This document shows positions 25,850-27,557 of a stretch of 40,127 bases of DNA, piece after piece; position 1 is the stretch's first letter, and every line of letters starts with the position of its first letter. The stretch covers positions 1 to 40,127 of the forward strand of contig JALSUJ010000166.1 of assembly GCA_027071355.1 (NCBI GenBank). Reading direction: 5' to 3'. A program made the position numbers and the translations under genes. Under the pieces are notes generated by a model, which was given only the letters and a program-made list of their open reading frames with translations, did no database searches and was not told the DNA's origin. This stretch comes from Gammaproteobacteria bacterium. GTDB lineage: Bacteria; Pseudomonadota; Gammaproteobacteria; GRL18.

Positions 25850-25953
25850 TACAATAAACTGGCATATATTATGCTGCCTGCTTATATCAGGGGCTAAAGC
25901 CCTAATAACTATTATCCTAGAAAAATCAGAAAATATATTTGTGAGTCACTATT

Positions 25954-27258
25954 ATGTCAGTCCAGGCTATCAATCAACCATCAGCTGTCCTCAGTAATGG
26001 CAGCAGACAAACGGCAAATAATATTGCTATGCGGCTGAATTTTGCCTACCTCCTGAGGCAAAATCATTCCAGCCTCAATAAACAGTCACAGACTAAAAAC
26101 AGTGGCAAGAAAGCTACTGAAATAACCTCATTAAACACCCATAATTATCCCTCCATCCCAAATTCAAAGCTGATCTCACTGGGATCTCTATCAGCCAGAA
26201 AACAAACGGTGGCTCAATTATTACTGGACAATCCGCAGTTAAAATCAAAAACCTGGTCTATTATTCATAACCCCGTCAACCAGGGCAAAAATTTTAATGC
26301 CATAGCCTCAGGCACGACAATTTTTTATAACCCCGCTACTCGGGAAATACAATGGTCCAGCCATAACCTCTTCAGCAGACGCACACAACTGAATCCCGTT
26401 ACTGCTAATGATACCAGCTTGCTCACTGCCCGCTCTGACAAGCCTGCCAAAAATTCACAGCCGACTATTAAACTGGGACAACTGAATCAGGACAGCCCCA
26501 ATATTGCCAGCCTCCTGGCCAAACTGCCTGAATATAAAAGTCAGCGCTGGAGCATAATTCATGCACCGGCCAATAACAATAAAACATTTACCAGAATCCC
26601 TTCCGGCAGTACAATTTATCTTAATTCTGAAACCAGGGAGCTGTCCTGGTCATCAGCGAAGGCTACTGAGCAAACCACAACTGCAGGCAATTTGAGTCAC
26701 CCTAAAGCTAAAACCCTGGATGATGCTGTAAAATCGCTAATGGGTACTGCTTATGACAAGATGGACTGTTACACCCTGGTGGTTCAGGGTTTAAAGAATA
26801 TGGGCGTGCGCTATCGAGGCAAGGGCAGTCTGAGCAGTGCGCTATTACAACGAGCCCGCACTGAAGGGCTGGCTGAAAACACCTATTTTACCGGGGAAGG
26901 GATTTCCGAAGCGCTGGGAAGTAAGGTATACAACAAAGCGATTACCCAGGTAAATAATATTGAGCAGCAAAGCCGTGATATATTCCAGGAGATGCAGCAA
27001 TTAATGCAAAAAGGCGATATTTTATCCTTCTCTCTGGAAACCAGAGGCCATACCGGTATTATTTCACAAAACCAGAAACAGTGGACTTATATTAACTCCG
27101 GTCGTCTGGATCACGCCATTCATAACAACGCGCCCCGCCACGGAGTTGGTGAAGAGCCTTTAATTAAGGAAATCAGCAACTGGATTAAACTGGCTAAAAA
27201 ACGCCGGGAATCGCTAACTATAACCGTAGGACGGCTGGATCGGAACAAACTGGTTTAG
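25954..27258 (+). CDS. NlpC/P60-like cysteine peptidase candidate with two internal repeats
   Basis: I do not recognise this 434-residue protein as a named family. It has no signal peptide: residues 1-70 are polar and low-complexity. Two similar units of about 57-60 residues follow (about 76-135 and 173-233). Both contain W-S-I-I-H-x-P-x-N then F-x-x-I-x-S-G-(T/S)-T-I-(F/Y), N-x-x-T-R-E and W-S-S. The C-terminal part (about 255-420) looks like a papain-fold NlpC/P60 or CHAP domain: Cys272 in MDCYTLVVQGL is the likely nucleophile, and GDILSF then His366 in RGHTGII suits the base, followed by WTYINSG. Peptidoglycan or amide hydrolysis is plausible. The RBS is weak (GTGAG). It is convergent with the next gene, 17 bases away. 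Confidence 0.7.
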   Translation: MSVQAINQPSAVLSNGSRQTANNIAMRLNFAYLLRQNHSSLNKQSQTKNSGKKATEITSLNTHNYPSIPNSKLISLGSLSARKQTVAQLLLDNPQLKSKTWSIIHNPVNQGKNFNAIASGTTIFYNPATREIQWSSHNLFSRRTQLNPVTANDTSLLTARSDKPAKNSQPTIKLGQLNQDSPNIASLLAKLPEYKSQRWSIIHAPANNNKTFTRIPSGSTIYLNSETRELSWSSAKATEQTTTAGNLSHPKAKTLDDAVKSLMGTAYDKMDCYTLVVQGLKNMGVRYRGKGSLSSALLQRARTEGLAENTYFTGEGISEALGSKVYNKAITQVNNIEQQSRDIFQEMQQLMQKGDILSFSLETRGHTGIISQNQKQWTYINSGRLDHAIHNNAPRHGVGEEPLIKEISNWIKLAKKRRESLTITVGRLDRNKLV

Positions 27259-27263
27259 GCTAA

Positions 27264-27289
27264 AGAGCACATGCTCTAAGAATTTTTTT
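27264..27289 (+). terminator. Weak terminator candidate after the repeat/peptidase gene
   Basis: AGAGC (27264-27268) pairs with GCTCT (27273-27277) around a 4-base loop, and a run of seven Ts ends at 27289 after a short gap. It overlaps the end of the convergent 93-residue gene. Confidence 0.35.
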
Positions 27290-27557
27290 CGTTTTCCACT
27301 GCTTTTTCAGTAATTTCATGATACAGACCAATAACCCTGACAAACAAGTCTTTTAACTGAGCATCCGCCTTGTCCAGATAATATTCATTTTCTCTGGCAT
27401 CTTTAAACACTTCATCCAGAAAATCCAGTTCATGGGCAGAAAGTTTTTTCCCCTCATGAACATTTGTTTTTATTTCCAGTAAACGCGGTAAACGCTGTTC
27501 ATCAAAACGTTTTAAAATTGCCCTGATAACGGCCTGATCTTTCTGATTTTTTTCCAT
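27276..27557 (-). CDS. Small helical protein of unknown function
   Basis: The 93-residue product is highly charged, with no Cys, signal peptide or membrane segment. It is predicted by eye to be mostly helical: AVIRAILKRFDEQRLPRLLE, then a turn at HEGKKLSAHE, then LDFLDEVFKDARENEYYLDK and a last helix. The pattern is of a small helical bundle or a dimeric adaptor. The ATG is preceded by AAAAAGA. It is divergent from the tungstate-binding-type gene and convergent with the peptidase-like gene. I recognise no family, and no neighbour suggests a role. Confidence 0.6.
   Translation of the reverse strand: MEKNQKDQAVIRAILKRFDEQRLPRLLEIKTNVHEGKKLSAHELDFLDEVFKDARENEYYLDKADAQLKDLFVRVIGLYHEITEKAVENEKNS

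Follow-up and report, generated by a model that had tools for sequence, protein, structure and literature searches.

The window, that is, the whole 40,127-nucleotide stretch of DNA that was analysed, carries a real and conserved gene on its forward strand. As judged from the sequence, the encoded protein consists of two copies of an unrecognised 59-residue module followed by a probable cell-wall-cutting cysteine peptidase domain, and so far it is known only from one small family of uncultured Gammaproteobacteria (Table 1). The reading that we prefer, with a probability of about 45%, is that the two-repeat protein is an accessory cysteine peptidase of the flagellar regulon, which would be exported via the flagellar type III apparatus and would act by cutting peptidoglycan. 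As a rule, the flagellum carries FlgJ-type glycosidases as its wall enzymes. If our reading is true, flagellar biology would include a second kind of wall cutting, performed by a cysteine peptidase that lacks a Sec signal and has a new binding module of its own.

Table 1. Positions of the two-repeat gene, its parts and neighboring features in the window.
Feature	Position	Strand	Basis
434-aa two-repeat NlpC/P60-like protein	25954..27258	+	ATG start; orthologues found, purifying selection
Residues 1-75, S/T/N/Q-rich, probably unfolded; candidate flagellar type III export signal	25954..26178	+	composition
Repeat 1, residues 76-134	26179..26355	+	internal alignment and unit alignment
Repeat 2, residues 174-232	26473..26649	+	internal alignment and unit alignment
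NlpC/P60-like catalytic domain, residues 252-434	26707..27255	+	profile comparison
Cys272, predicted nucleophile	26767..26769	+	invariant; sole cysteine in protein
His366, predicted catalytic base	27049..27051	+	invariant; aligns with His of NlpC/P60 'HVGI'
Asn381, candidate third catalytic residue	27094..27096	+	invariant in WT(Y/F)INSG; role suggested by position
Sigma-54 (RpoN)-like promoter, TGGCATATATTATGCT (GG-N10-GC)	25860..25875	+	present in 10/10 orthologues
Possible intrinsic terminator, AGAGCACATGCTCT then T-rich tail	27264..27285	+	directly after stop codon
Conserved 93-aa protein	27276..27557	-	no Pfam match
Lone short flagellin, 271 aa	3009..3824	-	Flagellin_N and Flagellin_C

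A conserved protein with two unrecognised repeats

Compared with the nearest orthologue, dN/dS was lowest in the catalytic domain (0.08), followed by the repeats (0.16-0.25) and the linker (0.41), and the values of the domain and the repeats indicate purifying selection on the coding sequence. Variation among the orthologues is free in the linkers and at the N-terminus. Searching Pfam, NCBIfam, PHROGs and PADLOC with the two-repeat protein gave no match above threshold, and the protein, the repeat profile and the domain profile found only chance-level matches among PDB sequences, including WW-like hairpins. For all of these collections, the statement of the first-pass annotation that no described family has this architecture holds. 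Hairpins resembling the possible terminator behind the gene occur at chance frequency in the surrounding region.

The two repeats that had been proposed from the sequence are real, since their gap-free alignment scored 147, whereas none of 2000 shuffles exceeded 48, but each unit is 59 residues long instead of about 57. Both motifs that had been quoted for them, one beginning with W-S-I-I-H and the other ending with T-R-E-x-x-W, are present exactly as written. When 16 units from eight genomes were aligned, 13 of the 59 positions were invariant (G2, L14, L15, W26, I28, I29, H30, N34, K37, F39, I42, E56 and W59). The first and the second units fall into two distinct classes, and the duplication is therefore older than the split of the genera.

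No family in the domain libraries matched the repeats, and the 59-residue repeat would be a new domain family if our reading is true. LysM-containing NlpC/P60 enzymes likewise have two small N-terminal modules ahead of an NlpC/P60-type domain, but the repeats of the two-repeat protein do not match LysM (PF01476), which had been named at the outset as a known family that they might hit. Against a LysM profile built from genomes of the class, they scored 10.6 in hhalign, within the range of the shuffles (mean 9.3, maximum 14.8), and there was no Pfam LysM match, so that this identity was rejected. We also rejected the matches of the repeat profile outside the family in 399 genomes (best E = 0.0015), which were a cobinamide-kinase-like protein and an unrelated repeat protein.

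The C-terminal domain resembles NlpC/P60 peptidases

PF00877, the NlpC/P60 family, was touched by all nine members compared, each time below the cut-off (best E-value 0.0062), and the domain of the window protein reached 14.9 bits where the curated Pfam cut-off is 23 bits. We built an independent NlpC/P60 profile from members of the class and compared it with the domain by hhalign, with 200 column shuffles as a control. The local score was 29.0 (shuffled mean 12.9, maximum 26.9; reversed columns 14.4) and the global score was 31.3 (shuffled mean 1.8, maximum 11.2; reversed columns 4.4). The papain-like, NlpC/P60-type C-terminus of the first-pass annotation is thus borne out by profile scores above all shuffles but not by Pfam's cut-off, and for this reason we call the domain NlpC/P60-like and not a member by Pfam's rule. 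An NlpC/P60-like fold is probable.

In the profile alignment, MGTAY...DCY lies on GTPY...DCS and GDILSF...GHTGI lies on GDLVFF...HVGI. The domain thus shares with NlpC/P60 a Cys at 'GT-Y...DC', then 'GD(I/L)...F...H-(T/V)-G-I' and then a third polar residue. It differs from PF00877 in the distance of 94 residues from Cys to His, about 40 more than in ordinary members, in a conserved insert YFTGEG...G-K-Y between these two residues, and in the Asn at the putative third position, while the protein as a whole differs in the lack of a Sec signal, in its new N-terminal repeats and in that all its members fall below the cut-off. CHAP amidases/peptidases (PF05257) show a likeness in a weak match over the His region in 6/9 members, whereas NlpC/P60 matches more members (9/9) and also spans the Cys motif.

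Identity of the catalytic domain between the window protein and its homologues was 67-90%. Cys272 and His366, the catalytic candidates named beforehand, both exist and are invariant, as is Asn381, in all homologues covering these positions, and Cys272 is the single cysteine of the protein in every homologue. A domain that is catalytically dead or structural and used for binding would suit the match below the Pfam cut-off and the roughly 40 extra residues between Cys and His. Considering that Cys, His and Asn are invariant, that the cysteine is the only one of the protein, and that dN/dS is lowest in this very domain, we regard a loss of catalysis as very improbable.

AlphaFold, run from two sequences only, gave poor models with mean pLDDT of 34 and 58, the latter for the catalytic domain. 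Foldseek with this domain model found no match below E = 0.2, and several of the top matches were Josephin/USP cysteine proteases; as the models were too poor, the Foldseek result was not used as evidence. The poor models and the sub-cut-off Pfam match were both counted against the flagellar wall-enzyme reading.

A sigma-54-like promoter shared with flagellar operons

Upstream of the gene, the element TGG(C/T)A(C/T)A-N4-ATGC(T/A), which has the sigma-54 promoter spacing GG-N10-GC, was found in each of the 10 orthologues with upstream DNA. It mostly lies 38-78 bp from the orthologue start, and the surrounding upstream DNA has diverged. The site is farther upstream in genome G004 because the first part of the ORF is out of frame there. 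The N-terminal part of this orthologue (L022 = L015, 2373-2540) also carries stops, so that the 5' end of this copy may be truncated or decayed.

In flagellar loci fetched from G000, G013 and G016, sigma-54-like sites precede flgB, flgF, flgI and flhA at 50-80 bp from the starts. Across the window and 15 loci, we counted the ORF starts that have a site with 11/12 matches or more no farther than 120 bp away. Such a site was present at 12 of 262 starts, seven belonging to the two-repeat gene and five to heads of flagellar operons (flgB, flgF, flgI in two genomes, and flhA), against 1 in 2620 (0.0004) after shuffling, although this enrichment is not an unbiased genome estimate because the flagellar loci were chosen on purpose. 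The non-flagellar neighbors at the fetched flagellar loci were without a site. A genome-wide search for the pattern in G000 gave nine matches, about the chance number, and two of these precede an apparent NapC/NirT-type cytochrome gene and a NirB-like gene (L073, L074). That apparent nitrogen- or cytochrome-metabolism genes are among the matches counts against a flagellar assignment, since sigma-54 has other targets. No good match to a sigma-28 promoter was found upstream of any homologue, and this candidate was dropped.

In Pseudomonas, class II and III flagellar genes are transcribed with sigma-54 and FleQ or FleR (PMC8036289). Based on the predicted promoter, the two-repeat gene probably belongs to the flagellar sigma-54 regulon, and having the same kind of promoter as flagellar genes suggests a wall enzyme that accompanies the flagellum.

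Association with flagella and relation to FlgJ

FlgJ or FlhA is present in all 11 genomes that carry the gene, and none of the four genomes that have neither FlgJ nor FlhA carries it. Expressed as 0/4 against 11/20, this is a weak association when taken alone (about p = 0.07). Fully flagellated relatives without the gene also exist (G005, G006, G007 and G015), and in G002, G003, G005 and G022 the home site cleanly lacks it, which shows that flagella do not need it. The gene lies outside any flagellar cluster. The lone flagellin gene of the window, about 22 kb away, is likewise outside a flagellar cluster. Extra FHIPEP (FlhA-like) matches were seen in G013 (C120) and G015 (C1), and some relatives possibly have a second type III system, flagellar or otherwise.

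The window's genome has a separate FlgJ with a PF10135 rod-binding domain and a PF01832 glucosaminidase domain. The two-repeat protein matched neither of them and is not FlgJ. Both would share the flagellar regulon and a non-catalytic part joined to a wall hydrolase domain; however, the predicted fold and chemistry of the two-repeat protein are different, and its gene is dispensable. FlgJ acts in the wall at the growing rod (PMC8036289). The flagellated relatives without the gene, the glucosaminidase domain of FlgJ and the position outside a flagellar cluster were all counted against the flagellar wall-enzyme reading. As FlgJ already has a glucosaminidase domain, a peptidase would complement FlgJ and not replace it, and the two-repeat gene must have a conditional role, since flagellated relatives manage without it.

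Possible export and mode of action

None of the homologues has a hydrophobic N-terminal segment, in agreement with the earlier remark that the N-terminus is not a Sec signal. Ser, Thr, Asn and Gln make up 48% of the first 50 residues in the window protein and 40-48% in most orthologues, and this content exceeded that of all 123 background proteins in the window protein and in 7/10 orthologues. The first-pass annotation had offered a cytoplasmic location, release by lysis, or export by a type I or flagellar route; among these, the promoter and the N-terminal composition favor the flagellar route, with export itself remaining putative.

The NlpC/P60 superfamily has cytoplasmic members. A cysteine peptidase or amidase that acts on small peptides or wall fragments, with motility-linked expression and never exported, would accord with such members and with the lack of both a Sec signal and a membrane segment. 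On the other hand, two repeated modules joined by fast-evolving linkers have the look of a binding protein with its site of action outside the cytosol, and the extreme S/T/N/Q-rich N-terminus together with the single cysteine suits export better, which leaves the cytoplasmic location with perhaps a minor share of the probability.

Flagellar apparatuses are known to export non-flagellar proteins via an N-terminal sequence (PMC2764114, PMC5223770). In its proposed route of export and its candidate N-terminal signal, the two-repeat protein is likened to Cia, FspA and FlaC of Campylobacter (PMC2764114, PMC5223770), without a claim of sequence relation, and differs from them in its catalytic wall-type domain. 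On balance, we lean slightly toward export of the two-repeat protein by the flagellar apparatus. An exported protein could also act outside the cell, with neighboring bacteria, a host or the surface of the cell itself as its target in place of the basal body. The sigma-54-like promoter, the N-terminal composition, the flagellar export of non-structural proteins in Campylobacter (PMC5223770, PMC2764114) and the accessory nature of the gene, which is lost in several relatives, would all fit an extracellular role, but nothing points to an external target and peptidoglycan enzymes are the nearest match of the catalytic domain, so we consider it unlikely. Given export, peptidoglycan is the probable substrate.

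For a peptidoglycan-cutting enzyme of the flagellar regulon, the following course can be proposed. RpoN, which in this lineage apparently also reads the operons of flgB, flgF, flgI and flhA, would transcribe the two-repeat gene as its own unit. The S/T/N/Q-rich, cysteine-free N-terminus would remain unfolded as it passes the flagellar type III export gate. Beyond the inner membrane, the two repeats may hold the protein to peptidoglycan or to the growing rod, and the Cys272-His366-Asn381 domain would cut peptide stems as an NlpC/P60-type endopeptidase, beside the muramidase domain of FlgJ. That this would constitute a previously undescribed class, a flagellum-exported peptidoglycan endopeptidase with a new paired binding module that works beside or beyond FlgJ, is a tentative and rather doubtful proposal.

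Distribution and genomic setting

Of the 24 genomes of the host family, 11 carry an orthologue; they belong to genera g1 and g4. Scanning genome contigs with the single protein sequence recovered the nearest orthologue only. The full-length profile found nothing outside the family above chance in a sample of 369 genomes of the class, nor did the repeat and domain profiles in a sample of 399 genomes of the phylum. Similar proteins may occur in Desulfobacterota. Searches of phages, plasmids and IMG/VR gave no homologue, and a phage or plasmid origin was rejected on this ground.

In most genomes with an orthologue, the gene follows those of an SNF2 helicase, a thioredoxin-like protein and a GGDEF/EAL protein. 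Where it is cleanly absent from this site, in G002, G003 and G005 of the same genus and in G022 of g4, the GGDEF/EAL gene directly adjoins the gene of the 93-aa protein. Because the position is the same in g1 and g4, the simplest history is presence in the ancestor and repeated loss. The conserved 93-aa protein adjoins the two-repeat gene in most relatives and is kept where that gene is absent.

The setting also bears on whether the protein could be a sigma-54-controlled type VI secretion effector, a Tae-kind NlpC/P60 amidase fired at competitors. Known antibacterial amidases of the NlpC/P60 fold also lack Sec signals. Genes of the T6SS sheath occur in 13/24 genomes of the family, including that of the window. 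Some T6SS clusters are under sigma-54 control (PMC8036289). However, four genomes with the gene are without a TssC/VipB gene, an immunity-like gene is not a constant neighbor, VgrG or PAAR genes were not noticed in the vicinity, and the gene sits at a stable position next to housekeeping genes. As three of the four genomes (G009, G010 and G011) are 99-100% complete, a type VI effector was judged highly unlikely.

Beside the thioredoxin-like neighbor in G015 (L165), the GGDEF/EAL and two-repeat genes are replaced by others, some of them transposase-like. In G016 (L128, 12300-18300), short regularly spaced repeats are read as repetitive ORFs (FLSCLYGSE / SLPYRQLRK), and these arrays are apparently a CRISPR array adjoining large ORFs.
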